This document shows, in pieces, positions 43,579 to 64,000 of a stretch of 64,000 nt of DNA. Origin of the DNA: Cyclonatronum proteinivorum (GTDB lineage Bacteria; Bacteroidota; Rhodothermia; Balneolales; Cyclonatronaceae); the NCBI RefSeq assembly GCF_003353065.1, contig NZ_CP027806.1:1815353-1879352 (forward strand). The letters are read 5' to 3'. The notes beneath the pieces are model-generated. The model was not told where the DNA came from, searched no databases, and saw only the letters and a list, made by a program, of their open reading frames with translations. Made by a program: the position numbers and the translations under genes. The stretch's first letter is position 1; each line of letters begins with the position of its first letter.

Positions 43579-44035
43579 GCAGCTTGGTCTTTTGATACAC
43601 TACTATTAAATAATGCCTGCAAAATTCATGCAAAAACGTTGCAGTCAGTTGCAGGGCGGTATGTCCTTAGTTTACTGAAATCCAAAGACGCGGGTTTTCG
43701 CAGGTAACACCCTATAAATCAGCTATACACAGGGCATGTTTTACAAAAAGGCATAAGCGGGTGAGAAAATGCGATTTATGTTCTGTTGGAAGCACTTTTA
43801 TAGCTTGTAAGCGCTTTAAAAGCGCTTTTTTTAGGCTTGTATATATGATGTATAACTTGTTTATACCTGATCTCAGCCTTACTATGCGTGCGATCCACCC
43901 CATGAGTAAAAGTATCCCTTGTATAAATACCGCAAATTATTTGATCGGCTAAGAAAATTTGTGGATTCCGCAAGTTTGCTTCTAAAAATTGCGTGGTGGA
44001 CATCCAATAAAATCCTGATGTCAAAACCAACGAAC
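43579..44035 (+). promoter_or_regulatory. leader region of the beta-1,3-glucan locus with a palindromic site
   Basis: About 450 bp. AAGCGCTT, itself a palindrome, occurs at 43809-43816 and again 3 nt later, followed by a T run. This is either a terminator or, read as TGTAAGCGCTT, a LacI/cre-type operator. An AT-rich stretch (TTGTATATATGATGTATAACTTG) follows near 43837 and may hold the promoter. The in-frame ATG at 43919 lies before the real signal peptide and is not taken as the start. Confidence 0.4.
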
Positions 44036-47000
44036 ATGATCAGAACGAAACAGTTTATGATCCTCCTCAGCTTACTGCTAATGGCCTCGGTCAGCAGTTC
44101 GCTTGCGCAGGATCGCGTGCATGTACAGGAGGACGCTGACGGCTGGCGCCTTCTTGTTGACGGTGAACCTCTCATGGTAAATGGTATGAACTGGGATTAT
44201 TTCCCAATTGGTACCAATTACGAATATGATTTCTGGGGTCAGTCCGACCGCTTTATTAGAGATGCCTTAGATTATGAAATGCGCCTGCTCCAAAATATGG
44301 GCGTAAACTCAATTCGGGTTTACACTGGTATTACGCCTGAGTGGGTAACCTATATATATGATAACTACGGCATCTATACTATGCTTAACCACTCATTTGG
44401 CCGCTACGGCGTAATGCTTGAAGATGGCTGGATGGCAAATACCGAATATTCTGATCCCAGGGTGCAGGAACTGCTCCTTCGCGAGGTTACAGAAATGGTT
44501 CAGGAATTCCGCGGAACCCGCGGTCTCCTGTTGTACCTGCTCGGTAACGAAAACAATTACGGCCTTTTCTGGGGCGGTGCTGAAACAGAGGATATACCGG
44601 TTGTTGACAGGCAGTCAACGGTTCGTGCCCGTGCCATGTATGAATTGTTTAATGACGCAGCACTCGCAATGAAGGAATACGACACGGATCGTCCGATTGC
44701 CATGGCAAACGGTGATTTGTTGTTTATGGATCTTGTCGTTGAGTTTATGCCGGATATGGACATCTTTGGTGCCAATGTGTACCGCGGTGAAACTTTCACA
44801 GATTTGTACGATCGGGTAGCTGCCGAATACGGCAAGCCGGTACTCCTTACCGAGTTCGGTTCGGATGCTTTTAATGCCAGAACCAATCAGGAAGATCAGC
44901 TGATGCAGGCTCACTTCAAGCGCCTGAACTGGCTTGATATTTACCAGCACGCTGCAGGCATGGGTCGTGCACAAAACTCTATCGGTGGATATACTTTCCA
45001 GTGGAGTGATGGCTGGTGGAAATACGGTCAGACTGTTGATCTTGATGTACATAACACCAACGCTTCCTGGGCAAATGGTGGTTATTGGTGGGATTATGTG
45101 GAAGGTGAAAACAACATGAACGAAGAGTGGTTTGGTATCATGGCCAAAGGCCCGACGGATGCTATGGGACACTTCCGCCTCTTCCCACGTGCTGCTTACT
45201 ACGTTCTTCAGGAAGCCCACAAAATAGATGTTTATGCCCCCGGCATGAGCGCGGCAAGACTCGCTGAGATCTTCGAAGATATCAATATTATGGACGCCTA
45301 CCTGCGTGCACGTGGTGATACGGCAGCGCTGGAAGTAGATCGTCTGACCGGTATTCGTCTGAGTCGCTTCACAGCTGATTTCAAAACCTTCAACACAGGC
45401 GGAGATAAAATTACCACGCCGGAATCAGCCGACCCGAATGTGCGTCAGTTCCCTAATGAACAGGGTTTCGACCACATGCAGTCTTTCTATGTAGGTGTTG
45501 AAGCGCGCCCATCCAACGATGTACGTGCAGAAGTACAGTTCAACGTACTTGCGAATGTTGCCCAAAACCCGATTGATGAAATCTTCTACGAAAACCGCGG
45601 ACGTCAGCTTGAAGTCCTAACGCCTGAAGGCATTGCGACCCTGGAAGATGTTAACCGCGTGAAGGTTTACAATGCAAGCTTCGACTGGAATCACCGCTAT
45701 TTTGATCTCGAAGGTTTCTACCGCACCGGTCGCTACCATTGGGGCTATGAAGGCGATTTCTTCGGCCTGTACCCTGAAGCCAACTATGGCGATCAGATCG
45801 ATATCTACAACGGTATTGCGCCCTTTGGTTTTGAAATGGCAGGTCGCCGCGAATTTGACGGTTTCAAATTTGCTTTTGGTCCGCAGCTGTGGTGGGGTGC
45901 TAACCCGGCCTTCTTGCTGAAATACCGGCACCGTACAGGTCCCTGGGATATGGCAGCCATTTACCATGAAGACATTGCCACACAGGGCATGACAGAAAGC
46001 TCTTTTGCCGTACCGCAGCCCAAGACCCGTCGTGTAACCTTTGCAGCGACCCGTGATTTTGGTCCGCTGGAAGTACAGGGTGGTGTAATCTGGGCAGGTC
46101 AGCCGCTGAACGATCGTGAATTCCAGATCTACCGCAATGGTGAAATTTTCGTTGATCAGATCAATCCGGAAGACAACTGGGGCGGTAAGCTCAAGCTGAC
46201 CTATCAGGGCGGTAACTTCAACTGGTACGCGCAGTCTGCAGTTATGGGACTTGTAGCGCAGGGTGGTTACGATCAGACCATGACCTTTACAGGCTGGCAC
46301 CTGAAAGACAGCGGAAGCGGCAATCAGTACAACTTCCTCACCGGTTTTGCCTATCAGCTCGGTGATTTCCAGATCGCGCCCAACTTCCTGTGGCAGCAGC
46401 CGATCGAAGGCCCCATTCCTGCAGATGTAGCTGCACCGGGCCGTCCGAGAAACATTCTCGATGATCCGTTCTCTGTTCGTGCAAACCGCGAGACCGTAGC
46501 CGGTGAGCTTCTGATTACCTACGATCCGACGCCCGCTACCTACATGTTCGACTGGAACAACGACTACCGCGAAGATGCCCCGTTTGCAGCAAGTGTTGGT
46601 TTCATTTACCGTCACCATCCTACCACACAGGATGCGGCCATTGGTATCCTTCCTGACGGACGTACCGCGTTTGCCTTCCCCGGTGCACCACCTGCAAGAG
46701 ACCTTTGGGAAGCACATGCCCGTATCGTATCCCGTGTAAGCCCTGATCTGGGAATCATTGCACGTCTGTACGGTGGTGAAGCAGAAGCCAACGGAAGTGA
46801 CGACCGCCTGATCGAGCGTTTTGGTGGTGATCTTCGCGTGATTTACCGCAACATCATGCTCAACTCATTTGTGCGCGTAAATGACTGGGGTCCGTTTGAC
46901 TACCATCGTGACTTCAACCTTACCTTCCCGCTTCAGCTGATGGCCGACGTTTCGATGTCGCTTGGTGAGCAGGATTGGTTTGACATGCCGCGCACCCGCA

Positions 47001-47164
47001 TAGGTGTACGTGGTACCTATCGTACGCTTGATGAGTTCTCTCCACGCTATGCTCCTGCATTCATGGAAGACCCGAGCGGACAGATTGTACCAAACCCGGT
47101 TGCCCCAGGTTTTGGAAATGGTAATGAGTGGGAATTCAGAACCTACATCCAAATCAATATCTAA
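44036..47164 (+). CDS. secreted glycosidase fused to an outer-membrane beta-barrel
   Basis: A 1042-residue protein from ATG 44036, which begins a clear signal peptide (MIRTKQFMILLSLLLMASVSSSLAQ). Residues about 25-400 form a clan-A TIM barrel close to GH2/GH5 types: VNGMNWDY, VNSIRVYTG, acid/base E172 in LLGNENNYG and nucleophile E273 in VLLTEFGSDAF. From about residue 470 to the end (some 570 residues) the sequence changes to repeated amphipathic strands rich in Y, W, F and G (RYHWGYEGDFFGLYPEANYG, FKFAFGPQLWWGANPAF) and ends RTYIQINI, like an outer-membrane barrel. First gene of the glucan locus; the arrangement would feed its own product into its own pore. I know no named family with this fusion. 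Confidence 0.75.
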   Translation: MIRTKQFMILLSLLLMASVSSSLAQDRVHVQEDADGWRLLVDGEPLMVNGMNWDYFPIGTNYEYDFWGQSDRFIRDALDYEMRLLQNMGVNSIRVYTGITPEWVTYIYDNYGIYTMLNHSFGRYGVMLEDGWMANTEYSDPRVQELLLREVTEMVQEFRGTRGLLLYLLGNENNYGLFWGGAETEDIPVVDRQSTVRARAMYELFNDAALAMKEYDTDRPIAMANGDLLFMDLVVEFMPDMDIFGANVYRGETFTDLYDRVAAEYGKPVLLTEFGSDAFNARTNQEDQLMQAHFKRLNWLDIYQHAAGMGRAQNSIGGYTFQWSDGWWKYGQTVDLDVHNTNASWANGGYWWDYVEGENNMNEEWFGIMAKGPTDAMGHFRLFPRAAYYVLQEAHKIDVYAPGMSAARLAEIFEDINIMDAYLRARGDTAALEVDRLTGIRLSRFTADFKTFNTGGDKITTPESADPNVRQFPNEQGFDHMQSFYVGVEARPSNDVRAEVQFNVLANVAQNPIDEIFYENRGRQLEVLTPEGIATLEDVNRVKVYNASFDWNHRYFDLEGFYRTGRYHWGYEGDFFGLYPEANYGDQIDIYNGIAPFGFEMAGRREFDGFKFAFGPQLWWGANPAFLLKYRHRTGPWDMAAIYHEDIATQGMTESSFAVPQPKTRRVTFAATRDFGPLEVQGGVIWAGQPLNDREFQIYRNGEIFVDQINPEDNWGGKLKLTYQGGNFNWYAQSAVMGLVAQGGYDQTMTFTGWHLKDSGSGNQYNFLTGFAYQLGDFQIAPNFLWQQPIEGPIPADVAAPGRPRNILDDPFSVRANRETVAGELLITYDPTPATYMFDWNNDYREDAPFAASVGFIYRHHPTTQDAAIGILPDGRTAFAFPGAPPARDLWEAHARIVSRVSPDLGIIARLYGGEAEANGSDDRLIERFGGDLRVIYRNIMLNSFVRVNDWGPFDYHRDFNLTFPLQLMADVSMSLGEQDWFDMPRTRIGVRGTYRTLDEFSPRYAPAFMEDPSGQIVPNPVAPGFGNGNEWEFRTYIQINI

Positions 47165-47175
47165 GAAATTATTTA

Positions 47176-48621
47176 ATGGTTATGACCATGATGAAACAAG
47201 TAATAACACATTCCAAATATGCGCTTCTTGCAGCTTTGCTGTTGATGCTGGGCTTCAGCGCATGTGAACGATCCGTTGACGGACTTCCGGAGGCAGAGTT
47301 TAGCTCCAACCCGGAAGTATTTATTGACGGATTCAGCCCGGGACTGGAATATTTTCCTTTTGAAGGTTCTGTGCTAAATGCTTTCACAGTAGATACAGAG
47401 ACCTTCTTCGGAAACAGAGGCGCGTCTATGCGTTTTGATGTTCCTAATGTCGGCGATCCTGCCGGTGCGTTTGCCGGTGCTATTTTCCGTGATGATTTTG
47501 GCGGAAGAAACCTGACCTCCTATAATGCGCTCACCTTTTATGCGAAAGCAACAAGAGGCGGAACCATTAACGAAATTGGTTTCGGTCAGGATTTCCTCGG
47601 CAATGAATTCGAAGCTACCCAAAACAACCTGCAGCTTACCACCAACTGGCGGAAATACACCATCCCCATTCCTGATCCTTCAGTGCTTACCCAAAGCCGC
47701 GGCTTATTCTGGTACGCAGAGGGTCCTGAAAACGGTGAAGGGTATTCTTTCTGGATTGACGAGCTGAGATATGAGTTTGTAGAGGATATTGCTCAGCCCC
47801 GTCCTGCCATTCAGCAGGGTACGGATGCCTCTCAGATTCTGTTCATCGGTTCCGGTGCGCAGGTGACAGGGCTTACCTACACAGCAAATCTCGGTGACGG
47901 ACAGGATGTGACGGTCAGCGCAGCACCTGCGTATTTTGACTTTGCCAGCAGCAACACCAGTGTTGCAACGGTAAATGACGCTGGTCGCGTAACGGTAGTA
48001 GGCGAAGGGGAGGCGGTAATTACAGCCTCTCTCGCTGGTGTTGATGCTGCCGGTTCCCTGCGTGTTGAGTCCTTGGGTGAGTTCATTGCAGCACCAACCC
48101 CTGAGGAGCTCCCCGAAAATGTTATTTCAATTTTCAGTGATGTTCCCGGCTTCGACGATGTGCCGGTTGACTTCTACAATGGCTTTTACGAGCCATTCCA
48201 GACCACGACTTCAAATGACTTTGAAGTTGACGGCGACCGCGTACTGGCTTACGAAAACTTCAACTTCGTTGGAATTGAGTTCAATCAGAACGTCCCAACG
48301 ATTGATGCTTCAGAGATGACACACCTCTCACTGCATATCTTCCTGCCGGATACGGTTCCGCCTAACTCAGCTTTCAGGGCGCGTATCGTTAACAATCTTG
48401 GTGGTGCAGGCGGACCTGAGTCCTCGGCTTCGGCAACCGTCAGTAACAACACCGGACTTGTTTCAGGAGAATGGGTAAGAGTACTTGTACCGCTTACCGG
48501 CATGCCTGACAGATCGAACCTTGGACAGATCGTATTTGACTCAGATCAGGGCCCTGGCTTACAAGGGTCAACCATTTGGGTAGATAACATCTATCTGTTC
48601 AATGCGAATGCTGCAAACTAA
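47176..48621 (+). CDS. surface glycan-binding lipoprotein with CBM-like and BIG2 domains
   Basis: A 481-residue lipoprotein; start ATG 47176, 11 bp after the previous stop (other in-frame ATGs at 47182 and 47188). Lipobox LLMLGFSAC. Three parts: a jelly-roll CBM-like domain (about 30-210, with FYAKATRGGTINEIGFG and WIDELRYEF), a BIG2 Ig-like domain (about 225-300, ASSNTSVATVNDAGRVTVVGEGEAVITAS) and a second CBM-like domain (about 315-480, ending STIWVDNIYLFN). No catalytic residues. It most likely holds beta-glucan at the cell surface, taking the place of SusD/SusE-type binding proteins. Confidence 0.75.
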   Translation: MVMTMMKQVITHSKYALLAALLLMLGFSACERSVDGLPEAEFSSNPEVFIDGFSPGLEYFPFEGSVLNAFTVDTETFFGNRGASMRFDVPNVGDPAGAFAGAIFRDDFGGRNLTSYNALTFYAKATRGGTINEIGFGQDFLGNEFEATQNNLQLTTNWRKYTIPIPDPSVLTQSRGLFWYAEGPENGEGYSFWIDELRYEFVEDIAQPRPAIQQGTDASQILFIGSGAQVTGLTYTANLGDGQDVTVSAAPAYFDFASSNTSVATVNDAGRVTVVGEGEAVITASLAGVDAAGSLRVESLGEFIAAPTPEELPENVISIFSDVPGFDDVPVDFYNGFYEPFQTTTSNDFEVDGDRVLAYENFNFVGIEFNQNVPTIDASEMTHLSLHIFLPDTVPPNSAFRARIVNNLGGAGGPESSASATVSNNTGLVSGEWVRVLVPLTGMPDRSNLGQIVFDSDQGPGLQGSTIWVDNIYLFNANAAN

Positions 48622-48646
48622 ACCCCTAAAGGCCTTTTAAGACACA

Positions 48647-49474
48647 ATGAAAACTACATTGTTCATTATAGGCGCATTTTGTATTGCTGCCCCCCTCTTT
48701 TGGGGGTGCAGCGATCAAAATGAACCTAAAGACAGGTTTACCAACCTGATTTGGCAGGATGAATTTGACGTTGATGGTGCTCCGAACCCGGAGAACTGGA
48801 TTTTTGATATTGGAACAGGAGCAGATCGCGGTATCCCCGGCTGGGGTAACAACGAGCTCCAATACTATACTGACCGACCTGAAAATGTGAAAGTTGAAGG
48901 CGGCATGCTGCATATTACGGCCAAGCGTGAAGACTTTGAAGGTTCAGCGTTTACTTCAGGCCGCATTCTCACACGCGGACTTTTTGATACAACCTTCGGG
49001 CGTTTTGAAGCAAGCATTAAACTCCCGTTCGGCCAGGGAATCTGGCCTGCATTCTGGCTTCTTGGGGAAGATGCTGACGGCACCATTATCTGGCCTCAGA
49101 TTGGCGAAATTGACATCATGGAATATGTTGGTCAGGAGCCACGGGTAATACACGGTAGTGTTCACGGTCCCGGCTATTCTGCAGGTAACGCTGTAACACA
49201 GACATACAGACTTTCCAGCGGTCGCTTCGATACGGACTTTTATGTTTTTGCCATTGAGTGGGGACCCGATTACATTGACTTTTTTGTCAATGACACCCTC
49301 TACAATACCATTACACCGGCTGATATCGGTGACAATGAGTGGGTTTTTAACGACAATACTTTCTATATCCTTCTAAATGTGGCTGTAGGCGGTACATTTG
49401 TTGGTCCGCCCAATCAAAACACACCGTTTCCGCAAACCATGCTGGTGGACTATGTGAGGGTCTACTCCAAATAA
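48647..49474 (+). CDS. GH16 endo-beta-1,3-glucanase (laminarinase) lipoprotein
   Basis: A 275-residue enzyme. Signal ends with a lipobox (APLFWGC, C21). The GH16 catalytic motif E-I-D-I-M-E is present: nucleophile E154, D156 and acid/base E159 in GEIDIMEYVG. Other GH16_3 features are WGNNELQYYT, GRFEASIKLPFGQGIWPAFWLL and the terminal MLVDYVRVYSK. The extra residue in ExDxxE and the overall sequence are typical of laminarinases. It follows the binding lipoprotein by 25 bp. Confidence 0.95.
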   Translation: MKTTLFIIGAFCIAAPLFWGCSDQNEPKDRFTNLIWQDEFDVDGAPNPENWIFDIGTGADRGIPGWGNNELQYYTDRPENVKVEGGMLHITAKREDFEGSAFTSGRILTRGLFDTTFGRFEASIKLPFGQGIWPAFWLLGEDADGTIIWPQIGEIDIMEYVGQEPRVIHGSVHGPGYSAGNAVTQTYRLSSGRFDTDFYVFAIEWGPDYIDFFVNDTLYNTITPADIGDNEWVFNDNTFYILLNVAVGGTFVGPPNQNTPFPQTMLVDYVRVYSK

Positions 49475-49540
49475 AGGAAAGCTAAACCAAACGCTACGCC
49501 GCAGTCGCTCAACCTATCCAATCATTAAATCAAGCAAACC

Positions 49541-52500
49541 TTGTCAATCACAATAGCGCACATTCAGGAAGAACGCTGGTTCAAAATTGCTGACAGCGAT
49601 AGCCTAAGACCGTTTTTTATGAACATCGTAAGTGATTCCAATCACTGGATGTTTATTTCAAGTAACGGTGGCCTTACTGCAGGCCGGAAAAACAACGAGT
49701 ATTCGCTTTTCCCGTATTACACGGATGATAAAATTACCGAATCAGCTGATATCACAGGCAGCAAAACCATCCTTCAGGTAAAATCAGGCGAAAAGCTGCA
49801 TATATGGGAGCCGTTTTCGGAGCGTCAGGCCGGACTGTGGAAGGTCACGCGTAACCTGTACAAAAGCTTTAGCGGCAACAGAATTCTGTTCGAAGAAATC
49901 AATCATGACCTGAACCTTTGCTTCAGGTATCAGTGGAATTCAAGCAATCTGTATGGCTTTGTCCGCAAAAGCGAGCTCATCAATTTATCCGAAGAAGCCT
50001 GCACAGTTAACATCGTAGATGGTATTCAGAACATTCTGCCGTACGGTGTTGAGCCTGATACGCAAACCAAATCGAGCAATCTTGTTGATGCCTACAAGCG
50101 CAGTGAAATTGTGTCAGGATCAAATGTTGGCATTTTTGCACTAAGTGCTATTATTGTTGATAAGGCAGAGCCCAGCGAAGCGCTGAAAGCGAATGTGGCT
50201 TGGTCACTCGGGTTTGAAAACCCGCTTTGCCTTGCGTCTTCACTGCAGCTTGATACATTCAGAAGCGGCAGACAGCTCAAAGCCGAAGATGACATCAAGG
50301 GCGAGAAAGGCGCTTACTTCCTCAACGGCGAATTCACCCTTGCCCCGGAAGAGCAGAAAAACTGGAAAATCATTGCCAATGTAAATCAGAACTACGCGCA
50401 GGTTGTGGCGCTCAATCAGGCGATTGCTGAAGATGACGCCCTTGAGTCCAAAATCGAGGAAGACATCAAGCGCGGTACACAACGCCTGCGTGCCCTCGTA
50501 GCGGGTTCTGATGGTTTGAGATTAAGCGAAGACTACCTCAAAGATGCCCGTCACTTTTCCAATGTACTCTTCAACATTATGCGGGGCGGCACCTTCGATC
50601 ACAATTATCAGATCGAGCGCGGAGACCTCAGCCGCTACCTCCAAAATGCCAGCAAAGCCGTCTTCCGTAAGCACGAAGATAAACTTGCAGCCCTCCCTGA
50701 AGTATTCGAAAAGGAAAAGGTCGATACACTCATAGCTGAAAGCAGCGACCCTGATTTGAACCGTTTGCTCTGCGAATACCTGCCGCTCAAATTCAGCCGC
50801 CGTCATGGCGATCCGAGCAGGCCCTGGAACTACTTTTCCATCAACACGCACAGCGAGCTCGACGGATCCAAGATTCTGGACTATCAGGGCAACTGGCGCG
50901 ATATTTTCCAGAACTGGGAAGCCCTTGTTCATGCCTATCCGAATTTCATTGAAGGCATGATTTTCAAGTTTCTGAATACTTCAACCTTCGACGGATACAA
51001 CCCTTACCGGGTGACCAAAGACGGCTTCGACTGGGAAACCATCGAGCCCGACAATCCATGGTCGTATATCGGCTACTGGGGTGATCATCAGATCATTTAT
51101 CTCCTCAAATTTCTGGAGTTTTACAACAGCCGTCAGGAAAACGGATTTGACGGCTTTTTCAATCAGGATACCTTCGTGTATGCGCATGTGCCGTACCGGA
51201 TTAAGTCCTATGAAAACATCGCAGAAGACCCGAAAAATACCATCGATTTTGATGATGATGCTGATTTGGCAATCCGTAAAGCAGTTGTGGAAGAAGGCGC
51301 AGATGGCGCATTGCTTCGCAACAGCAGCGGGGATATTCACCGGGTCAACTTCCTCGAAAAGATTCTGGCTACAACCCTGGCCAAAATTTCCAACCTGATA
51401 CCCGAGGCGGGGATCTGGATGAATACGCAGCGTCCCGAGTGGAATGACGCTAACAACGCACTTGTGGGCAATGGCGTCTCAATGGTTACGCTGTATTACC
51501 TGCGCCGTTTTCTCTATTTCTTTGAAGGCGTGTTTGAAAGCAGCAAAATGCAAGAGGCAGCCGTATCCGAAGAGATGGCTGAGTTCTTCCGTGCTGTAGC
51601 CGAAGTCCTGGATTCAAACAAGGGTATTCTGGACGGCCCGGTCAATGATGCTATCCGCCTTGAAATTACAGAAGCCCTCGGCAAGGCCGGAAGCGCATAC
51701 CGCCTCAAGGTGTACGAGAAGGGATTCAGCGGAAGCAAAGAAACCATCACCCGTGATGAGATTGCTGCATTCACAAAAACGGCGCGTCTTTACATGGAAC
51801 ATGCCATCCGTGCCAACCGCCGCGACGACAAGCTTTATCACGCGTACAATATCATCACCCTTGATGAAAACGGCATTTCAGTAGGTCATCTGGATGAAAT
51901 GCTTGAAGGACAGGTCGCGGTACTCAGCTCAGGCTATCTGAGCCCGGCAGAAAGCGTGGAAGTCCTCGACGCCATGCGTAAAAGTGCGCTCTATCGTGCG
52001 GATCAGAACAGCTACATGCTGTATCCCAACAAGCAGCTGCCGCGCTTCCTGGAGAAAAACATCATCCCGAACGAGCTGATTGAATCTTCCCCGCTACTGC
52101 AGAAACTTCTTGAAGACGGAAATCTGCAGATTGTGAACCGGGATATCCTGGGCGGGGTGCATTTCAATGGCAGTTTCCGCAATGCAGCCGATGTTAAAGA
52201 AGCGCTCGAAAATATGGCAGACGGTCCCTATGCCTCGCTTGTCGCCGCTGACGGCGCAACGGTTTTGCAGGTGTTTGAGCAGGTGTTCAACCACAAAGCC
52301 TTCACGGGCCGCTCAGGTACCTTCTTCGCCTATGAGGGGCTTGGTTCCATCTACTGGCACATGGTATCAAAACTGTACCTTGCAGTAGGCGAGGTTTGTG
52401 AGCAGGCGGCAACAGCTAACGAAAGTGCTGCGCTGCAGGACAGGCTTGCCAAACATTTCTATGAAGTATTTGACGGCATAGGGGTTCATAAAACGCCGAA

Positions 52501-52954: not shown

Positions 52955-52974
52955 ATCAATCTAATACATTGCTC

Positions 52975-54267: not shown

Positions 54268-54284
54268 ATAAACCGCAGGACAAA

Positions 54285-54457: not shown

Positions 54458-55888
54458 ATGTCTGTAACTACGACTCCTGCGAAAGACAGGGTACCTTTTC
54501 TGGAAAAAGCGGCATTTGGCTCCGGACACCTGGTCAATAACCTGCTGCCAGGTGCTTTAGGCGTTTTCTCCTTCTTTCTGCTTACCGCTTTTGGGATGGA
54601 TCCCTTCCTCGCAGGTTTGCTTGGCGGCCTTCCCCGACTGTTTGACGCCATCACCGACCCTATTATGGGGTACATATCTGACAACACCAAATCCCGGTTT
54701 GGCCGTCGCCGCCCCTACATTTTTGTGGGCGCCATTTTAAGTGGCTTGCTGTTTATGCTGTTATGGCAGCTTGACCCCGATGCCTCGCAAATGTACAATT
54801 TCTGGTATTTCCTGATTTTCTCCTTGATTTACCTGATTGGAAATACCATGTTCTCAACCCCTCTGATCGGGTTGGGGTATGAAATGACCTTCGACTACAA
54901 CGAGCGTACCCGTCTGATGGGTTTTTCACAAGTTATTGGTCAGATTGCATGGATGATTGTACCTTGGTTCTGGGTACTTATTGCAAATCCTGATTTATTC
55001 GAAACACAGGCACAGGGGGTTCATCAGCTTGCTGTAATCGTAGGAATTGCGTGTATTGTGCTCGGAATCATGCCTGCATTGTTTTGTAAGGAAGTCGATC
55101 AGACAAACCTTGATAAGCGCGAGAAGATGACCATGGCATCCGTTTTGGAAAATCTGAAGGAGCTGATCAGGAATATGAAGCTAATTGCACAAAACAAGCC
55201 GTTTGCCCGCCTGTGTGGCTCGACCTTTCTGGTGTTTAACGGCTTTCAGATGGTAGCTTCCTTCAGTTACTTTATCATTGTGTTCCACATGTTCAACGGA
55301 GATTATGGCATGGCCGGAACATGGCCGGCATGGTTCTCTACCGTGAGTGCGCTGGCAACTGCATTTTTGATTATCCCGATTATCACCATGCTTGCCAACA
55401 AATACGGTAAGCGTAATGCCTTCATCATTTCAACCATCATTTCGATAGTGGGGTATCTCCTCAAGTGGTGGGGATTCAGCCCGGAAAACCCATGGCTTAT
55501 CTTTATGCCAATTCCCTTCATGGTATTCGGAATCGGCGGATTGTTTACCCTGATGATGAGTATGACCGCTGACGTTTGCGACTATGATGAGCTTCAGCAC
55601 GGAATGCCCCGGAAAGAAGGAAGCTTCGGCGCCATTTACTGGTGGATGGTTAAACTCGGCCAAGGCCTTGCACTCGTATTGGGTGGTCTCGTGCTTAAGG
55701 TTGTAGGTTTCGATCCAGCCCTTTCAGAGCAAACCGCACAAACCATGGTCAACTTAAGACTGGCAGATATTATCATTCCGTCGGTAACCGCAGCACTGGC
55801 CGTATGGGTTATGTGGGGTTATGATCTGAGCGAGGAAAGAGCAAGGGAAATTAAAGATCAGCTCGTTGCCCGCAGGGGTGAATTGTAA
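54458..55888 (+). CDS. GPH-family glycoside:cation symporter
   Basis: A 476-residue transporter with 12 predicted helices of the MelB-like GPH family. The cation-site segment FDAITDPIMGYISDNTKSRFGRRRPYI is characteristic, as is TADVCDYDELQHGMPRKEGSFGAIYWW between helices 10 and 11. In this locus it should import beta-glucan oligosaccharides from the periplasm for the cytoplasmic GH17 enzymes and the phosphorylase. Confidence 0.9.
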   Translation: MSVTTTPAKDRVPFLEKAAFGSGHLVNNLLPGALGVFSFFLLTAFGMDPFLAGLLGGLPRLFDAITDPIMGYISDNTKSRFGRRRPYIFVGAILSGLLFMLLWQLDPDASQMYNFWYFLIFSLIYLIGNTMFSTPLIGLGYEMTFDYNERTRLMGFSQVIGQIAWMIVPWFWVLIANPDLFETQAQGVHQLAVIVGIACIVLGIMPALFCKEVDQTNLDKREKMTMASVLENLKELIRNMKLIAQNKPFARLCGSTFLVFNGFQMVASFSYFIIVFHMFNGDYGMAGTWPAWFSTVSALATAFLIIPIITMLANKYGKRNAFIISTIISIVGYLLKWWGFSPENPWLIFMPIPFMVFGIGGLFTLMMSMTADVCDYDELQHGMPRKEGSFGAIYWWMVKLGQGLALVLGGLVLKVVGFDPALSEQTAQTMVNLRLADIIIPSVTAALAVWVMWGYDLSEERAREIKDQLVARRGEL

Positions 55889-55944: not shown

Positions 55945-56856
55945 ATGTCATTCAGAAAAGAAAGATTTCTTAGCTATGCAGGAGTAGGCTCCAACGATAA
56001 AACAAGTTACCTGCAGAACCTCTCCGCTGATGAGCTCGATAGCCTGTTTATGGAGATCATGCAAAACGGGATTCACGGCTTGTGCTTCAGTCTTTATGAA
56101 GATGGTCAGAAGCCGGGAGATCACATCAGTGAAGCCCAAATTCGCCGCCGCATTGAAATAATCAAGCCCTATGCAAAATGGGTACGCTCTTTTTCATGTA
56201 TCGAAGGCAATGAGTTTATCCCTATTGTTGCGAAAGAGCATGGCATGAAAACCCTTGTTGGGGCCTGGCTCGGACACGATGAAGAAAAAAACCGTGAAGA
56301 AATCGACGCCCTTATTAAGCTCGGCAAAGAAGGCAAAGTTGATGTTGCTGCGGTAGGCAATGAAGTTCTGTACCGTAAAGACCTCAACCTCGAAGAACTG
56401 CTTGGTTATATGCGCGAAGTGAAAGAAGCGCTGCCGGATATCCCCGTAGGCTATGTTGACGCCTATTATGAATTCGTACGTCGTCCGGAACTCACAGACA
56501 TGTGTGACCTCATTCTTTGTAATTGCTACCCTTACTGGGAAGGAACCGCTATCGAGCATAGCTTCGGACACATGCGTCACATGTTTGATCTTTGTGTACA
56601 TGCCGGAAATGGCAAGCGCATCTTGATAACAGAGACCGGATGGCCAAGTCAGGGGGAAGGTCTCGGAGGCGCAATGCCATCCAGAGAAAATGCGATGAAG
56701 TATTTCATCAATACACAGCTTTGGGCCAATGATAATGATGTAGAAGTTTTCTACTTCTCATCCTTTGATGAGTCCTGGAAGGTTGGCGCGGAAGGAGAAG
56801 TCGGCGCGTACTGGGGGCTGTGGGACAAGCATGAGAAACTTAAATACGGCGCATGA
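55945..56856 (+). CDS. cytoplasmic GH17 glycosidase (first)
   Basis: A 303-residue GH17 enzyme without a signal peptide. Acid/base E140 in AVGNEV and nucleophile E230 in TETGWPSQG; FYFSSFDESWK near the end. It starts 56 bp after the symporter gene and overlaps the next GH17 gene by 4 bp. Likely trims imported oligosaccharides. Confidence 0.88.
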   Translation: MSFRKERFLSYAGVGSNDKTSYLQNLSADELDSLFMEIMQNGIHGLCFSLYEDGQKPGDHISEAQIRRRIEIIKPYAKWVRSFSCIEGNEFIPIVAKEHGMKTLVGAWLGHDEEKNREEIDALIKLGKEGKVDVAAVGNEVLYRKDLNLEELLGYMREVKEALPDIPVGYVDAYYEFVRRPELTDMCDLILCNCYPYWEGTAIEHSFGHMRHMFDLCVHAGNGKRILITETGWPSQGEGLGGAMPSRENAMKYFINTQLWANDNDVEVFYFSSFDESWKVGAEGEVGAYWGLWDKHEKLKYGA

Positions 56857-57785
56857 GTACCTTTGAAAAACTCAACATGGAACCCGGAAGAGCAGTTTGC
56901 TATTCCGGGTTTCGTGAAGGGCAGCAGCCCGGAGGTCCCTGGCCTACTTACGATCAGATTGTAGAAGATTTGCACCTGATGCACCCGATCTGGAAGCACC
57001 TTAGGCTGTATGATGTTGATAAGCATGCTGAAATTGTGCTGGATGCCATCCAAAAAGAAAAGCTCGGTTTCAAAGTGATGCTGGGTGCTTACATTGAAGC
57101 TGAAATGAACAACTTCAATTGCCCCTGGGGAGGCGGTGTTTTCAGTGAAGAACAGCTGGAAGCCAACGTAGCCCTGAATAAGTCCAAAATGGAAAAGCTG
57201 ATCAGGCTGGCCAATCAGTATCCCAATATCATCAACAGTCTTTCCGTAGGGAATGAAGCCTGCGTGGAGTGGACCGATCATTATGTGCACGAAAACAGCG
57301 TTCTGGCCTATGTGAAACAGGTTCAGGCGGGTGCAAAACAGCCGGTCACGTTTTGCGAAAACTACGTGCCCTGGCATTTCAAACTGCAAAAACTTGCCGA
57401 AGCGGTGGACTTTATCTCCATTCACACCTACCCGGTCTGGGAATACAAACACATTGACGAAGCTATTGGGTACACCAAGGATAATTACTATTCTGTAGCC
57501 CACAAGTATCCCCATAAGCCTGTGGTTATTACGGAAGCCGGATGGGCAACCAACTCCAACGGCAGAGGTATTGACCCGGGCAATGTGAATGAGACCTATC
57601 AAAAAATTTATTTTGAGAAGCTCATGCAATGGTGTGAAGAGGAAGGTATTTTAACCTACTTCTTTGAAGCCTTCGATGAATCCTGGAAAGGCTCCCCTGA
57701 ACCTCTCGAACCGGAAAAGCACTGGGGGCTCTTTTTTATTGACAGAACGCCCAAAATGGTGCTACAGGAGGCACAAAGAAGTTAG
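56853..57785 (+). CDS. cytoplasmic GH17 glycosidase (second)
   Basis: A 310-residue GH17 enzyme, no signal peptide. Acid/base E135 in SVGNEA, nucleophile E228 in ITEAGWAT, FEAFDESWKGS at the C-terminus. It is closer to the lipoprotein GH17 (52975-54267) than to its immediate neighbour in motif wording, so the three are not a simple tandem copy. Its ATG overlaps the previous stop (ATGA), giving coupled translation and suggesting that the two enzymes work in a fixed ratio. Confidence 0.88.
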   Translation: MSTFEKLNMEPGRAVCYSGFREGQQPGGPWPTYDQIVEDLHLMHPIWKHLRLYDVDKHAEIVLDAIQKEKLGFKVMLGAYIEAEMNNFNCPWGGGVFSEEQLEANVALNKSKMEKLIRLANQYPNIINSLSVGNEACVEWTDHYVHENSVLAYVKQVQAGAKQPVTFCENYVPWHFKLQKLAEAVDFISIHTYPVWEYKHIDEAIGYTKDNYYSVAHKYPHKPVVITEAGWATNSNGRGIDPGNVNETYQKIYFEKLMQWCEEEGILTYFFEAFDESWKGSPEPLEPEKHWGLFFIDRTPKMVLQEAQRS

Positions 57786-57855: not shown

Positions 57856-60549
57856 TTGAAGCTCATTTTTCTCATTCTGCTTTTACTGGCAGGTGTCTGC
57901 GGTTCCGTGGCACAGCCTTTACCGGAAAAGGGTGTGCCACGCATGGCTGCATACAGTCCGTCAGATTACCTTAACCCAGGCAAAATCTGGGATATCGCCA
58001 CAGCTCCCGGAGGAGTCGTGTTCATGGCAGCGGATCGCGGACTTTTGGAATACGACGGCAGTCAGTGGCGTCGCTTCAGGGGAAGTGACGGTTTCCTGCG
58101 TTCGGTACTGGTTAAATCCGACAGCCTCATTTATACCGGCTCAGATCTGGATTTTGGCCGGTGGGTTAGAAGCGGTGATGGAAACTGGGAGTATACTTCC
58201 CTGTATCCGTTTCGCGACGAGCTTGCCGGTCTTGCGGAGGAGTTCTGGGGCGTGTATGAGCACAATGGCTTCCTATACTTTGTTTCCGCCAGCAATCTCT
58301 ATGTGTACCGGAATCAGAACCTGACCAAGATTGTTGCACCGGATCGCTTCAGCGGCAGTTTCTTTTTTGAGGAAGCCCTGTGGCTTGTAGATGAAACGCA
58401 GGGGTTGATTCGGGTTACGGAATTTGCCCTGCAGCAGCTTGCACCCTTTCCGGAATCAGGGCCACAGGAGATTATCGGGATGTTTCGGGATAACAACAAT
58501 CTACGCCTGGTAACCCGTGAATCCGGACTCCTCAGCTATCGCGACCGGACCATTGAACCTCTTAATTCGCCGCTGGCAGCTGAATTATCTGAAGCGGGGG
58601 TGTTTAGCTATGAAGCGATTTCGGATTCTGTTCATGCATTCGGTACCATTCAGAACGGGCTCATCATTGCGGATGCGGGCGGACGCGTACTTCATCGTAT
58701 CAACCGGAATAAAGGCTTGTTGAACAATACGGTTCTGAGCCTTCACTACAGCAGGTATGGGAAACTGTGGGCCGGACTCGATTTCGGGCTGAATACTTTT
58801 GACCTCCGCAGTAACTATTCTTTCTTTTATGATCTGCAGGGCGCTTTTGGCACCGGGTACGCAGCGCTTTTGCACGACGAAACCTTTTATTTAGGCACAA
58901 ATACCGGATTTTATCGCACCACCTGGGATAACCTCAGCGGCAGTCAGCTTTCGCCAGGGTTTCAACCCGTACCCGGGCTCAGTGGTCAGGTATGGTCCAT
59001 TCATCAGATTGGCGGCGATATTCTGATAGCCCATGACCGCGGGCTTTTCCTTTACCGTGATGACACAGCTGTTCGCCTGAATGCCGGCAGGGGAGTCTGG
59101 ACACTTGTACCGTTCAGGTCAAAACTACTTGCAGGCACCTACAACGGCATATCGGTTTTCAGTCGGGAAGCAGAGACGTGGACTTTTACCAAACAGCTTG
59201 AGCATATTTTTGGCTCGGTCATTCAGCTTGTCCCTGAAAGTGATGAGTGGCTCTGGGTGAATATTCCGAATTTTGGCATGGTACGCACCCGCCTCAATGA
59301 TGAGCTTTTACCTGTTGACCGCTTGCTGTATCCCATTGCTGATTTCGAAGGAGATGATGCCAAAATAGTTGTCGAGGGCGAAGATTTGTTCGTGCTGACA
59401 AGCCGCTTTAGGTACCGGTATGATTTCGACACGGAACAGTTTGAAGTAGCTGTTCCGGAGTATCATTTGCATTTACCTTGTGAAGTGGTCCCCGGCGTAT
59501 TTGCCCCGCTGATGCTGAACGATCAATGGCAGTTTTATCCGGTCTCAAACGGTTTCATGATAGAGGATCTCAGTCGCGAAATGGATCCGGCTCAATTCAA
59601 TACAAATTTTGAACTGCGGCAATCACAGATTTTTAGCTATCAGGAAGAGCGTTTTTGGGAACCGGACGATAGAATTCCAAGCGGCCTGAACAATGTGCGG
59701 TTCAGGGTACTCATCCCCAATGAAAGTGCCATGCGGTATCAGTACCGGCTGCATACAACGCAGGAGTGGAGTGTTCCGCAGGCTTCAGATACCATTGAAC
59801 TCGTGGGATTAACCCGTGGGCGCCATGAGCTTGAGATCAGGGCGGTAATGGGCGGGGAAATATTTGCTGAGAAAAACTTTACGCTGCATGTAGCGCCTCC
59901 CTGGTACCTCAGCTGGTATATGCTACTCCTCTTAGTGCTCCTTTTTATTGCTGCCTGGATTATTGCCCGGCGCTGGCACCGTGAAATCCTCATAGATCAG
60001 AAAAGGGAAATGTTGCGGCGTCAGCAGCAGGAAATGAAAAAGCAGGCTGCGCATCAGCGTCAGGCAATGCTCGAAAAGGAACAGCTTCGACTTAGGGGAG
60101 AACTTGAAAAACTGGAGCGCAACCTGAAAAGTAAAACCCTTGAGCTCGCCAACAGAGCTAAAAAAGGGCAGGATAAAAACCGGATACTACAGGATATCAA
60201 AGAAAAAATAGATGCGCTTGAGGCTACTTCGCAGGTTTCGAAACGCCGTATCGTCGAAATAGACAAAATGCTGGATTCCTGTATAGATCTTGATGACAAT
60301 ACCTTCGAGATACAAATGAACGAGCTGCACCAGGAATTTTTCCGGAAGATGAAAGAACGTTTTCCGGATTTATCAGGAAACGACCTGCGCCTTTGTGCTT
60401 ATGTGAAGCTTGGTTTCAGCGCAAAGGAAATTGCCGACATGCTGCAAATTCAGCCATCGAGTGTCTACATCAGCAGGTCAAGGCTTCGGAAAAAGCTCAA
60501 TCTTGATACCGAGGAAGATCTCTATGGTTTCCTGAACGGCATTGAATAG
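57856..60549 (+). CDS. membrane-anchored one-component regulator (Reg_prop, Y_Y_Y, LuxR-type HTH)
   Basis: An 897-residue protein starting at TTG 57856 with a signal peptide (MKLIFLILLLLAGVCGSVAQ). Periplasmic propeller repeats (about 40-600) and a Y_Y_Y domain precede a single membrane helix (about 684-708). The cytoplasmic part is a long coiled coil (about 710-800) and a C-terminal GerE/LuxR-type helix-turn-helix (LSGNDLRLCAYVKLGFSAKEIADMLQIQPSSVYISRSRLRKKL). There is no kinase or receiver. It most likely senses glucan oligosaccharides outside and binds DNA while anchored in the membrane, controlling this locus. Confidence 0.85.
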   Translation: MKLIFLILLLLAGVCGSVAQPLPEKGVPRMAAYSPSDYLNPGKIWDIATAPGGVVFMAADRGLLEYDGSQWRRFRGSDGFLRSVLVKSDSLIYTGSDLDFGRWVRSGDGNWEYTSLYPFRDELAGLAEEFWGVYEHNGFLYFVSASNLYVYRNQNLTKIVAPDRFSGSFFFEEALWLVDETQGLIRVTEFALQQLAPFPESGPQEIIGMFRDNNNLRLVTRESGLLSYRDRTIEPLNSPLAAELSEAGVFSYEAISDSVHAFGTIQNGLIIADAGGRVLHRINRNKGLLNNTVLSLHYSRYGKLWAGLDFGLNTFDLRSNYSFFYDLQGAFGTGYAALLHDETFYLGTNTGFYRTTWDNLSGSQLSPGFQPVPGLSGQVWSIHQIGGDILIAHDRGLFLYRDDTAVRLNAGRGVWTLVPFRSKLLAGTYNGISVFSREAETWTFTKQLEHIFGSVIQLVPESDEWLWVNIPNFGMVRTRLNDELLPVDRLLYPIADFEGDDAKIVVEGEDLFVLTSRFRYRYDFDTEQFEVAVPEYHLHLPCEVVPGVFAPLMLNDQWQFYPVSNGFMIEDLSREMDPAQFNTNFELRQSQIFSYQEERFWEPDDRIPSGLNNVRFRVLIPNESAMRYQYRLHTTQEWSVPQASDTIELVGLTRGRHELEIRAVMGGEIFAEKNFTLHVAPPWYLSWYMLLLLVLLFIAAWIIARRWHREILIDQKREMLRRQQQEMKKQAAHQRQAMLEKEQLRLRGELEKLERNLKSKTLELANRAKKGQDKNRILQDIKEKIDALEATSQVSKRRIVEIDKMLDSCIDLDDNTFEIQMNELHQEFFRKMKERFPDLSGNDLRLCAYVKLGFSAKEIADMLQIQPSSVYISRSRLRKKLNLDTEEDLYGFLNGIE

Positions 60550-60649
60550 CGCTGAACAATTATGCGTCACTACATACCAACATGCAACAAACGGGCAGTG
60601 CGGTACACGGCTGGCTGCGCTTTCAAATAAACGGGAGGAATGAAAACAC

Positions 60650-62221
60650 ATGAATAGTCAAAATGCAGTAGTTACCCGCATTGCTATGATCGTAGCGCTG
60701 GGTGGGTTTCTGATGGGATTCGACGCCTCGGTTATTTCCGGGGTTGTGGGTTTCATCGAACCGGAATTCGGTTTGTCAAAAATTCAGCTGGGCTGGGCTG
60801 TAGGCTCGCTGACCCTCACCGCAACCCTTGCAATGCTTGTAGCGGGTCCGCTGAGTGACCGCTACGGCAGGCGAATGGTGCTCAAAGCTGCGGCAATTTT
60901 GTTTGCGGTTTCCGCCATAGGTTCTGCGCTTGCACCGGATTTCCTGACCCTCGTTATCGCACGCATGATTGGCGGTTTCGGCGTAGGTGCTTCCCTCATC
61001 ATCGCCCCTATGTATATTGCAGAAATTGCCCCGCCCAAAATGCGTGGCAGGCTCGTGAGCTTTAATCAGCTCAATATCGTCATCGGGATTTCGACCGCAT
61101 TTTTCACTAACTACCTCATCCTGCAGTGGGCGCAGTCTGATGCCGGCTGGGCGCAGGCGCTGATGTTCAGTGAATACACCTGGCGATGGATGCTCGGCCT
61201 CGAAACCCTTCCCGCAATTCTCTATTTCTTCGGGCTCTACTTCGTACCCAAGAGTCCGCGCTGGCAGATCATGACCGGAAATGTTGCGGAAGCCCGCACG
61301 ACGCTCAACACCATCTACGGTGAAGCAGAAACAGACCGTCAGATCGAAGATGTTTTGAAGAGCCTCAATGCGGATAAGGACAAAGAAAAAGTTTCGATGA
61401 AGGAAGTATTTCATCCTTCGCTTCGGCTGGTTTTGATTATCGGCGTCACCCTCGCCATTTTGCAGCAGATCACGGGTATAAACGCCGTCTTCTTTTATGC
61501 CCCGATGATCTTTGAGCAGTCCGGTATCGGCACCGATGCGGCATTCATGCAGGCAATTCTCGTGGGACTTACCAACCTCGTCTTTACCGTCGCTGCCATG
61601 CTCCTCATTGACCGCATCGGCCGAAAACCGCTACTGGTTATAGGCATGAGCGGCATTACGGTGATGATGCTCCTCCTGGCCTGGGGCTTTCACTCGGCAA
61701 CCTATGAACTCACCGGGCAGGACATTGCCGCTATGGAAGTGCCCGCAGAAGTACAAATGCAGGCGGCGGGACTGGCCGGGCTTTCCTTTCAAAACGATGT
61801 GCAGTTCAAAAACGCGGTAGCAAATGCCATCGGAGACGATGCTGCCCTTGAATATCAGTCGGCGTTTCTGACGGCCGCCATTGATATCAATCCTGCCCTG
61901 ATCCTGTTTGGCATACTGGGCTTTGTAGCCTCCTTTGCCATCTCCATCGGACCCGTGATGTGGGTGATGTTTTCGGAGTTGTTTCCGCTTCGGGTGCGCG
62001 GCCTTGCGGTCTCGTTTGCCGGCTTTATCAACTCCGGGGTGAGCTTCTCCGTGCAGCTGGTTTTCCCCTGGGAGCTTGCGGTGCTGGGCAGCAGCATCAC
62101 CTTCCTGATTTACGGCCTCTTTGCCGCCGCAGGCCTCATCTTCATCTGGCGCATTGTGCCCGAAACCAAAAATAAATCGCTCGAAGAACTCGAGCAGCAA
62201 CTCGTGAGGAATCCATCATGA
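60650..62221 (+). CDS. sugar-porter family MFS transporter
   Basis: A 523-residue, 12-helix transporter with sugar-porter signatures: GFDASVISGV, DRYGRRMVLK, PKSPRW (PESPRW variant), QQITGINAVFFYAP, RIGRKPLL and PETKNKSLEELE. A long extracellular loop (about 360-405) is inserted in the C-terminal half. A Shine-Dalgarno GGGAGGA precedes the ATG by about 10 nt. It would import glucose or a short glucoside made by the downstream GH3 enzyme, whose ATG overlaps its stop (62218-62221). Confidence 0.92.
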   Translation: MNSQNAVVTRIAMIVALGGFLMGFDASVISGVVGFIEPEFGLSKIQLGWAVGSLTLTATLAMLVAGPLSDRYGRRMVLKAAAILFAVSAIGSALAPDFLTLVIARMIGGFGVGASLIIAPMYIAEIAPPKMRGRLVSFNQLNIVIGISTAFFTNYLILQWAQSDAGWAQALMFSEYTWRWMLGLETLPAILYFFGLYFVPKSPRWQIMTGNVAEARTTLNTIYGEAETDRQIEDVLKSLNADKDKEKVSMKEVFHPSLRLVLIIGVTLAILQQITGINAVFFYAPMIFEQSGIGTDAAFMQAILVGLTNLVFTVAAMLLIDRIGRKPLLVIGMSGITVMMLLLAWGFHSATYELTGQDIAAMEVPAEVQMQAAGLAGLSFQNDVQFKNAVANAIGDDAALEYQSAFLTAAIDINPALILFGILGFVASFAISIGPVMWVMFSELFPLRVRGLAVSFAGFINSGVSFSVQLVFPWELAVLGSSITFLIYGLFAAAGLIFIWRIVPETKNKSLEELEQQLVRNPS

Positions 62222-64000
62222 AACAAACCATCCCCATCATTCTAAGTATCCTCTTTCTACTCATGGCAACACCTGAGTCCCTGATTGCGCAGCAGGAGCG
62301 TCCGCTTTATCTCGACCCGAATGCTTCGGTAGAGGACCGTGTGGAAGACCTGCTCGCCCGCATGACCCTCGAAGAAAAAATCGGGCAGATGAGTCAGCTC
62401 GATATCTCACAAATCAACACAACCGGACTTCAAGCTGATGTTTTTCTCGATCCGGAAAAAGCCCGCGACATGGTCGTTAACAACCATGTTGGCTCGTTCC
62501 TAAACGGGGAGGCCGTTCCACCGCAGCAGTGGTATGAATTTATGGCGGAGCTCACCCGCATTGCGGTTGAGGAAACCCGTCTCGGCATCCCCATCATTTA
62601 CGGGATTGATCACGTGCACGGGGCAAGCTATATGGCGGAAACTACCATCTTCCCGCAGCCGATCAACCTCGGTGCGACCTTCAACACAGAGCACGGCTAC
62701 AACATGGGCTGGGTGACAGCGCTGGAAATGGCCGATGTTGGCCATCACTGGAATTTCGCGCCAACCCTTGATGTGGGCCGGAATCAGATTTGGGGCCGCC
62801 TTTATGAAACCTTCGGAGAAGATCCGTTGCTAACATCCCGCATGGGGGTCGCCTATCTCGACGGCTTCCACAACAATGAAGAAATTGCGCCTTACCGGCT
62901 GGCTTCCAATGCCAAGCATTTTCTGGCCTACTCGGATCCTGTGTCAGGCTGGGATAAATCCCCGGCAAGCCTGAGCATGCAGGAAATTTATGAAATGCAC
63001 CTGCCGCCGTTCCGGGCTGCCATTGAAGCCGGCGTGATGACCATCATGGCCAACAGCTCGGAAGTAAACGGCGAACCCGTGCACGCTTCCGCTCTATTCC
63101 TCACCGAAATGCTGCGAAAGCAGCTCGGTTTCGACGGCGTAGTGCTCACTGACTGGGATGAAGTCGGCAAACTCGCCGGTTTTCACCGCATGGTTCCCGA
63201 TTATAAAGAGGGCACCTACCGGGCTGTGACGGCCGGTATCGATGTGAGTATGACACCCCTCAGCCTGAATTTTAATGAGGCCCTTTTGGAACTCGTGCAG
63301 GAAGGCCGTATTTCTGAGGAAAGAGTGGATGAATCTGTCCGCCGTGTGCTGCGCCTGAAGTTTGAGATCGGCCTCTTTGAAAACCCGTTTCCGCGCAATG
63401 ACCGGCTCGACCGCATTGGCAGCGAAGAAAGCCGGATGAAATCCCTGCAGGCTGCCCGCGAATCCCTCGTGCTTCTCAAAAATGAAGACGACGTCCTTCC
63501 GCTGCAAAATCCAGGCAGAATCGTAGTTGCGGGGCCTTCTGCCAACAGCAAACGTAACCTTTCCGGCGGCTGGACCCTGGCATGGCAGGGCGGACGTGAA
63601 GAGCAGTACCCCGATCGCATGCTCACCGTGTACACCGGCCTGCAGCAGGCTTTCCCCGAAGCGCAGATCGATTTGCTTGAAACACTGCCTGAAAGCCGTG
63701 AAGCCCTTATGGATTTCCTTGCCGGTGCCGAAACTATCATCTATGCCGGCGGTGAAGAACCCTATGCTGAATTCCTGGGCAACATCCTCGACCTGAATCT
63801 CGAAGCTTCGCAAAAAGAGGATATCCGCCGCCTGTCTGAATCCGGTATCCCGCTTGTGACCGTGCTCATTCAGGGCCGTCCCCGCCTGATCACGGACGTA
63901 CTCGATCACATGGACGCACTCGTGCATGCAGGCCTGCCCGGTTTTGAAGGAGGGGAAGCCATAGCCGATGTTCTGAGTGGCAACGTTAATCCGAGCGGTC
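62218..64000 (+). CDS. GH3 beta-glucosidase, 3' end outside the window
   Basis: The first 594 codons of a GH3 enzyme; the frame is open to the right edge. Signal peptide about 1-24 (ending SLIAQQ). The N-terminal (beta/alpha)8 domain contains LARMTLEEKIGQMSQ, GIPIIYGIDHVHGA, FAPTLDVGRNQIWGR, KHFLAY and the nucleophile D312 in VVLTDWDEV. The second domain begins near 410 (ESLVLLKNEDDVLPL). It is secreted to the periplasm or surface and releases glucose from beta-glucan oligomers for the sugar porter. Confidence 0.92.
   Translation, partial: MKQTIPIILSILFLLMATPESLIAQQERPLYLDPNASVEDRVEDLLARMTLEEKIGQMSQLDISQINTTGLQADVFLDPEKARDMVVNNHVGSFLNGEAVPPQQWYEFMAELTRIAVEETRLGIPIIYGIDHVHGASYMAETTIFPQPINLGATFNTEHGYNMGWVTALEMADVGHHWNFAPTLDVGRNQIWGRLYETFGEDPLLTSRMGVAYLDGFHNNEEIAPYRLASNAKHFLAYSDPVSGWDKSPASLSMQEIYEMHLPPFRAAIEAGVMTIMANSSEVNGEPVHASALFLTEMLRKQLGFDGVVLTDWDEVGKLAGFHRMVPDYKEGTYRAVTAGIDVSMTPLSLNFNEALLELVQEGRISEERVDESVRRVLRLKFEIGLFENPFPRNDRLDRIGSEESRMKSLQAARESLVLLKNEDDVLPLQNPGRIVVAGPSANSKRNLSGGWTLAWQGGREEQYPDRMLTVYTGLQQAFPEAQIDLLETLPESREALMDFLAGAETIIYAGGEEPYAEFLGNILDLNLEASQKEDIRRLSESGIPLVTVLIQGRPRLITDVLDHMDALVHAGLPGFEGGEAIADVLSGNVNPSG

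Follow-up and report, generated by a model that had tools for sequence, protein, structure and literature searches.

The 64,000-nucleotide stretch of Cyclonatronum proteinivorum DNA analyzed here (the window) corresponds to positions 1815353-1879352 of a single-contig genome of 4,294,247 bases and contains a predicted beta-1,3-glucan locus of 11 genes, all on the + strand, from 44036 to ~64500. Its enzymes are assigned to the glycoside hydrolase (GH) families GH16, GH149 and GH3, together with three GH17-like proteins, and are accompanied by a GPH symporter, a sugar porter and a regulator; the first two genes encode a fusion of a glucanase with an outer-membrane (OM) beta-barrel and a lipoprotein with carbohydrate-binding module (CBM) and Big_2 matches. 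A preliminary description had taken this region for a beta-1,3-glucan locus without SusC/SusD, and the genes and families identified here agree with it, with no match to plug or SusD profiles in the window. The genes are as follows:

44036..47164, + strand: fusion protein of 1042 amino acids, with signal peptide, clan GH-A glucanase (~28-437) and OM beta-barrel (~440-1041), predicted from a weak PF02836 match, AlphaFold2 (AF2) models and Foldseek
47191..48621, + strand: CBM/Big_2 lipoprotein of 476 amino acids, proposed surface partner of the barrel (Big_2 and CBM_11 matches in homologues; lipobox followed by C-E-R-S-V-D)
48647..49474, + strand: GH16 laminarinase-type lipoprotein (PF00722, E 3.2e-22; acid-rich after the Cys in homologues)
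49541..52954, + strand: GH149 beta-1,3-glucan phosphorylase, no signal peptide seen (NF058639, 1710 bits, cut-off 1150)
52969..54267, + strand: GH17-like lipoprotein of 432 amino acids (PF00332, E 2e-4, below cut-off)
54458..55888, + strand: GPH-type symporter, inner membrane (PF13347, E 3.3e-63)
55945..56856, + strand: GH17, no signal peptide seen (PF00332, E 2.6e-11)
56853..57785, + strand: GH17-like protein, no signal peptide seen (PF02836, E 4.7e-7; PF00332, E 3.8e-6, just under cut-off)
57856..60549, + strand: membrane regulator with a sensor region (3v9f, E 1.3e-5), one transmembrane segment near residue 685 by hydropathy, and a LuxR-type helix-turn-helix (GerE, E 2.7e-4, below cut-off)
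60650..62221, + strand: sugar porter of the major facilitator superfamily (MFS), inner membrane (PF00083, E 1.5e-104; TIGR00879)
62218..64000, running on to ~64500, + strand: GH3 of the exo-beta-glucosidase type, with signal peptide (PF00933, PF01915)

Because the intergenic gaps are only -4 to 190 bp and all genes lie on the same strand, a single operon is plausible. By the curated profile cut-off, the GH149 assignment is certain. Two of the GH17 assignments fall under the Pfam cut-off, yet these proteins resemble each other (~30% identity between relatives of the first and those of the third GH17-like protein). The locus had been delimited as 43579-64000; its gene content stands, but its limits are slightly different. 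It starts with the fusion gene, the preceding 353-residue Porin_O_P gene being replaced by other genes in the relative G007, and the ATG at 44036, which opens a signal peptide, is the likely start codon because the part of the open reading frame (ORF) upstream of it is not conserved. At the other end, the GH3 gene extends past the window, encoding a full protein of 760 amino acids (L043:1071-3353).

We searched the whole genome with the profiles PF07715 (Plug), PF07980, PF14322 and PF12771 and found that neither the locus nor the sequence immediately flanking the window contains a susC-susD pair. PF07715 matches 26 places, the nearest of which (1907706-1907999, - strand) lies 28 kb from the window edge, without a SusD match nearby. 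PF07980 yields 7 matches, spread over 6 ORFs, and PF14322 yields 6, with only one weak place beyond the PF07980 ORFs, whereas PF12771 has no match anywhere in the genome. The nearest SusD-family matches by position, 1191864-1192415 (PF14322, below cut-off) and 1172543-1172806 (PF07980), are more than 600 kb away, and none of the six SusD-bearing stretches has relatives of the GH149, GH17, GH16 or GH3 of the locus alongside. A SusC/SusD pair hidden just beyond the window edge is thus ruled out by these searches and the downstream sequence.

The N-terminal domain of the fusion protein (residues 28-437) is a TIM barrel in the AF2 model. Pfam provides no more specific name for it than the weakly matching, generic GH2 TIM-barrel model PF02836, and phmmer finds no match, whereas its profile reaches BuGH158 (6pal) at E 1.4e-6 and GH158(Pro) (9oro) at 0.0038. 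GH158 is also the best structural match of the model (Foldseek to 6pal, E 4e-13; Z 27.7), with GH157 tied at 27.2. The residues N210-E211 and E312 (numbered on the 1081-residue ORF) are invariant in 32 fusions, and both catalytic Glu align with those of 6pal; the domain thus has the clan GH-A TIM barrel with Asn-Glu and Glu characteristic of GH158. In BuGH158, the corresponding residues are the acid/base and the nucleophile, respectively (PMC7157763). Its C-terminal Ig-like domain could not be recognized in the secondary structure of our model, where residues 328-363 are of low confidence. Judging from sequence profiles and model, the fused enzyme is a predicted clan GH-A glucanase closest to GH158. 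A chance or assembly-derived fusion is ruled out because many families contain fusions of ~1050 residues, whose barrels share 53-88% identity with that of the window.

Residues 440-1041 are predicted to form an OM beta-barrel, with a predicted TM-score (pTM) of 0.75 for the barrel-only model; the structure alignments contained 67 sequences including that of the window. The strands number 26 if counted generously and 22 if two short hairpins are assigned to the loops, an even number either way. Tight turns (median 2 residues) alternate with long loops (median 19; p 3e-4), and strand hydropathy alternates as well, only 1 of 1000 shuffles scoring as high. Both termini of the barrel lie on the tight-turn side in the model. 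This side is periplasmic in OM barrels, and the fused glucanase is therefore probably exposed to the periplasm. The long loops have a mean conservation of 0.80, above that of the strands (0.75) and of the turns (0.69), a pattern that fits a pore handling substrate more readily than it fits an inert anchor.

The barrel sequence has no Pfam match beyond chance level and no relative in the PDB, where two matches are at chance level (E 0.53 and 1.3). At the level of structure, Foldseek matches the model to BtuB, MOMP, AlgE and chitoporin, and VIA-align ranks pilus ushers first (FimD, Z 14.4, root-mean-square deviation 4.6 over 353 residues, aligned end to end in the same order). The modelled strand number is 22-26, against 22 in TonB-dependent transporters, of which BtuB appears among the Foldseek matches. 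The N-terminal place of their plug is occupied by the GH domain. We also considered a TonB receptor missed by annotation and rejected it, given that there is no PF07715 match at this gene and no Pfam or PDB sequence relative.

Among 15 homologues of the lipoprotein encoded next to the fusion, Big_2 matches the middle of the protein in 14 and CBM_11 is found in 5; it has no match to a SusD family. In a sample of the phylum (394 genomes, 170 genera), full-length relatives of this protein (E < 1e-60) are present in 32 genomes, which are the same 32 that encode an intact barrel, and in no others (Fisher p 8e-48, not corrected for kinship); one further genome without the barrel (G133) contains a partial match (E 3.8e-38) that was not counted. 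In 80 of the 80 loci from named genomes and in 29 of the 30 unnamed loci, as counted with a wide limit on gene overlap, the gene immediately after that of the barrel encodes the lipoprotein; the exception is G151, where a full-length copy is found ~10 kb upstream. G238 and G123, whose barrels are broken or reduced to a remnant, have no lipoprotein match, nor is such a gene visible next to the 12 stand-alone relatives of the GH domain. At least two acidic residues follow the lipid-bearing Cys in 61 of 73 of these lipoproteins, 57 of 70 GH16 proteins and 5 of 6 SusD proteins, compared to 3 of 35 GH17-like lipoproteins. An acid-rich stretch at this position marks surface lipoproteins, which would place the CBM/Big_2 lipoprotein and GH16 at the cell surface, and we propose that the former is the surface partner of the barrel.

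The barrel itself was detected in 34 of the 394 genomes of the phylum sample (32 intact), from 20 of the 170 genera, and, apart from fragments and the two broken copies (G123, G238), it is always in one frame of at least 1014 amino acids with the GH domain. A scan of named genomes found at least 550 relatives, of which 80 were kept; in four of these (L129, L134, L135, L173), the barrel ORFs are shorter than 900 residues at contig ends, and these were left out, so that 76 of the 80 named fusions were read. The named and unnamed sets overlap (for example, G003/L116 and G035/L144), and their counts are not additive. Nearly all of the 80 come from Bacteroidota or Balneolota. The two remaining contigs with a fusion locus belong to metagenome-assembled genomes of KSB1 (L187) and Verrucomicrobia (L194), reflecting either transfer between phyla or misbinned contigs. 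The gene order is conserved: the fusion and the lipoprotein are followed by GH16 in all 65 named loci with 6 kb of downstream sequence and then mostly by GH149, which is present within 9.5 kb in 48 of the 65. As the preliminary description had it, a fused barrel-glycosidase and a CBM/Big_2 lipoprotein hold the first two places, and of the gene order that it proposed to check in related genomes, this leading part is maintained. Comparison of these sequences indicates that the design is conserved across Bacteroidota and is not peculiar to the window locus.

Relatives of the GH domain also occur without the barrel. In two genomes of the same genus (G004 and G001), the order is SusC-SusD-GH16-GH-GH149, with the GH separate from any barrel; G002 has SusD-GH16-GH-GH149 at a contig end, G005 has the GH apart from a SusC-SusD-GH16-GH149-GH17-GPH row on one contig, and in G311, from another family, SusC-SusD is followed by GH16-GH-GH149. 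In a tree of 121 GH domains, 12 stand-alone rows are nested among the fused ones, implying 6 changes, at least 5 of which are forced by well supported branches. This is a quick tree with a midpoint root, and the direction of change is taken from the nesting, on which basis we read the stand-alone enzymes as products of repeated barrel loss. In L226 and L093 (G123 and G238), the GH gene is followed by a barrel remnant or broken barrel, which seems to show the loss under way. Most of the stand-alone enzymes are predicted lipoproteins (lipobox in 8 of 11 read), whereas the fused ones have ordinary signal peptides, which suggests that one membrane anchor, the barrel, is exchanged for another, the lipid. 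Unlike in the CBM lipoprotein and GH16, only 2 of the 8 lipobox-bearing enzymes have at least two acidic residues after the Cys.

Taken together, these observations make it probable that the barrel and the CBM/Big_2 lipoprotein form an alternative OM importer of beta-1,3-glucan, encoded in a laminarin-type operon. At the surface, the lipoprotein and GH16 would bind and shorten the glucan, and the chains would enter through the wide barrel with its strongly conserved long loops. The fused glucanase, located at the periplasmic mouth, would cut the emerging chain so that it could not slip back, making entry one-way. In the periplasm, the GH17-like and GH3 enzymes would trim the products, the GPH symporter would move oligosaccharides inward, and in the cytosol, GH149 and the GH17 enzymes would complete the breakdown by phosphorolysis and hydrolysis. 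More tentatively, this may be a second, SusC/SusD-independent class of polysaccharide importers in Bacteroidota, with a plugless barrel, a glucanase at the periplasmic exit and a CBM lipoprotein as the lid, in which the pull would come from cutting rather than from TonB energy. The preliminary description had likewise suggested an alternative uptake design; it named the right two genes, and the comparative evidence fits this reading well. The GPH symporter and the sugar porter, which it gave as the means of import, cannot replace SusC/SusD because both are inner-membrane proteins; the candidate replacement is the barrel with its lipoprotein.

Four of the 43 fusion genomes (G060, G075, G151, G262; draft assemblies, 99-100% complete) have no match anywhere to PF07980 or PF14322, the two SusD families covered by this search; a further genome, G211, has weak PF14322 matches only. 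On this sequence evidence, SusC/SusD does not appear to be a general requirement of the locus, although both systems coexist in some genomes.

Several observations weigh against an importer. Same-strand SusC and SusD genes were found beside the fusion in at least 4 of the 29 unnamed loci with 5 kb of sequence on both sides (all four of family f28) and in at least 1 of 51 named loci (L180), with a partial SusD near L183; these counts are lower bounds because the neighbourhood detector was a profile built from few sequences. In four genomes (G123, G371, G339, G300), GH-GH149 is present with no barrel, lipoprotein or SusC/SusD in view. Barrel loss and possession of a SusD orthologue are only weakly linked: within the order, the glucan-type orthologue is present in 4 of 27 genomes with an intact fusion and in 8 of 18 with a stand-alone GH (p 0.04, uncorrected for kinship). 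Furthermore, the full-length fusion model has a pTM of 0.51, leaving the placement of the two domains unsure, and a helix precedes strand 1 of the barrel, which would allow autotransporter-like threading with the enzyme outside.

Such threading is the core of the best surviving alternative, in which the barrel serves to display the glucanase, which passes through it and acts outside the cell, while oligosaccharides are taken up via general porins or other transporters. An enzyme followed by a C-terminal barrel, with a helix ahead of strand 1, is the order in enzyme-bearing autotransporters. Moreover, BuGH158 is predicted to be at the cell surface in its SusC/SusD locus, although PSORTb could not predict its localization (PMC7157763). 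The helix region is, however, not specific to the barrel because it is largely kept in stand-alone enzymes, and the exact pairing with the lipoprotein would be left unexplained. Type V autotransporters have a 12-strand C-terminal barrel of ~270-300 residues, roughly half the size of this one, modelled with 22-26 strands over ~600 residues. We consider a display anchor unlikely.

Less likely still, the glucan might enter via SusC/SusD acting in trans, with the fusion serving as an accessory enzyme. An orphan SusC-SusD pair lies at 182887-187500 (L237:4888-9500), with no adjoining CAZyme gene; its SusC shares 78% and its SusD 82% identity with their orthologues in the glucan locus of the genus relative G004. 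This pair is a real caveat, as it might help in trans in this genome. However, it is 1.67 Mb from the locus, 23 of the 27 intact-fusion genomes of the order have no close orthologue of its SusD, and the four fusion genomes mentioned above match neither of the two SusD families. Finally, an ordinary CAZyme cluster supplied with small oligosaccharides by general porins, such as those encoded by the Porin_O_P genes upstream (38823-40109 and 42517-43578), would be in line with the description of type I GH149 clusters as possible small-oligosaccharide scavengers (PMC5827456), but is very improbable because these genes belong to a phosphate-transport stretch and are not beside the fusion in G007, the presence of GH16 and of the CBM lipoprotein suggests that polymer is used, and the conserved large barrel would be left without a task.

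The likely importer resembles known systems in part. Like SusC/SusD, it pairs a large barrel with a surface lipoprotein, the two genes standing side by side at the start of a glycan locus; it differs in that the barrel is plugless, the lipoprotein has no SusD match and an enzyme is attached to the barrel N-terminus. Carbohydrate porins and exporters, such as chitoporin and AlgE, are likewise glycan OM barrels and structural matches, with no sequence match found; they are smaller barrels and carry no fused enzyme. The 1,3-glucan locus of Bacteroides uniformis shares GH16_3, GH158, a surface glycan-binding protein and the catalytic Asn-Glu and Glu, but BuGH158 (6pal) is there a lipoprotein of its own, next to SusC/SusD and with an Ig-like domain at its C-terminus (PMC7157763), whereas the enzyme studied here is fused to a barrel in a locus that lacks SusC/SusD.

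Clusters with GH149 and without susCD have been published already. Kuhaudomlarp et al. described such clusters in Bacteroidetes (PMC5827456), bloom studies reported GH149-GH0-GH16_3 loci and one NS4 locus without susCD (PMC10108472), and loci without susCD are also mentioned in PMC10811738. A Muricauda cluster includes LuxR, GH2, GH16, GH149, GH17, GH30_1 and MFS genes, with a "GH2 beta-glycosidase" (PMC13188888). These "CAZyme clusters" or "variant 1" laminarin polysaccharide utilization loci (PMC5827456, PMC10108472, PMC6246565, PMC13188888) have GH149, GH16_3, GH17 and an MFS transporter in common with the window locus, but the sections accessible to us call the first enzyme GH2 or GH0 and do not mention a barrel, nor do those of PMC10811738, PMC10877868 and PMC11005184. 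Judging from gene order, this GH2/GH0 enzyme may be a fusion of the window type. Searches aimed at such a fusion or at uptake without susCD gave no description of a glucanase-barrel fusion in the open-access literature, most subscription journals being outside that search, and the fused barrel looks to have gone unrecognized in the literature covered.

Some features of the surroundings were recorded separately. Upstream of the locus, a phosphate/anion transport stretch (35276-43578) contains a Na/sulfate symporter family member, a DUF47 PhoU-like protein, a PHO4 permease and the two Porin_O_P genes, as well as a secreted 620-residue protein with an InlB B-repeat-like domain; it adjoins the locus in G003 and not in G007. 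At the downstream edge, the first gene past GH3 is an IS200/IS605-family transposase on the opposite strand (L043:3727-4188), and ~8 kb past the locus, another GH3, with 58% identity to that of the locus, adjoins an apparent LacI-type regulator gene (L043:11224-14597). The GPH-type transporter (476 amino acids here) has relatives of 777-796 residues in the loci L159, L174, L182, L168, L226 and L234, which likely correspond to the MFS-GH17 fusion reported for Formosa (PMC6246565).

Laminarin is a main currency of marine carbon, and the prediction of loci in Bacteroidota relies on susCD. Should the fused barrel prove to import glucan, many users of glucan would have been misfiled under plain CAZyme clusters, and SusC/SusD would not be needed for selfish uptake. 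The presence of both designs in one genus offers a natural comparison. Overall, the combination of fused barrel and lipoprotein is widespread in Bacteroidota and looks like an unrecognized uptake route for algal or fungal glucan.

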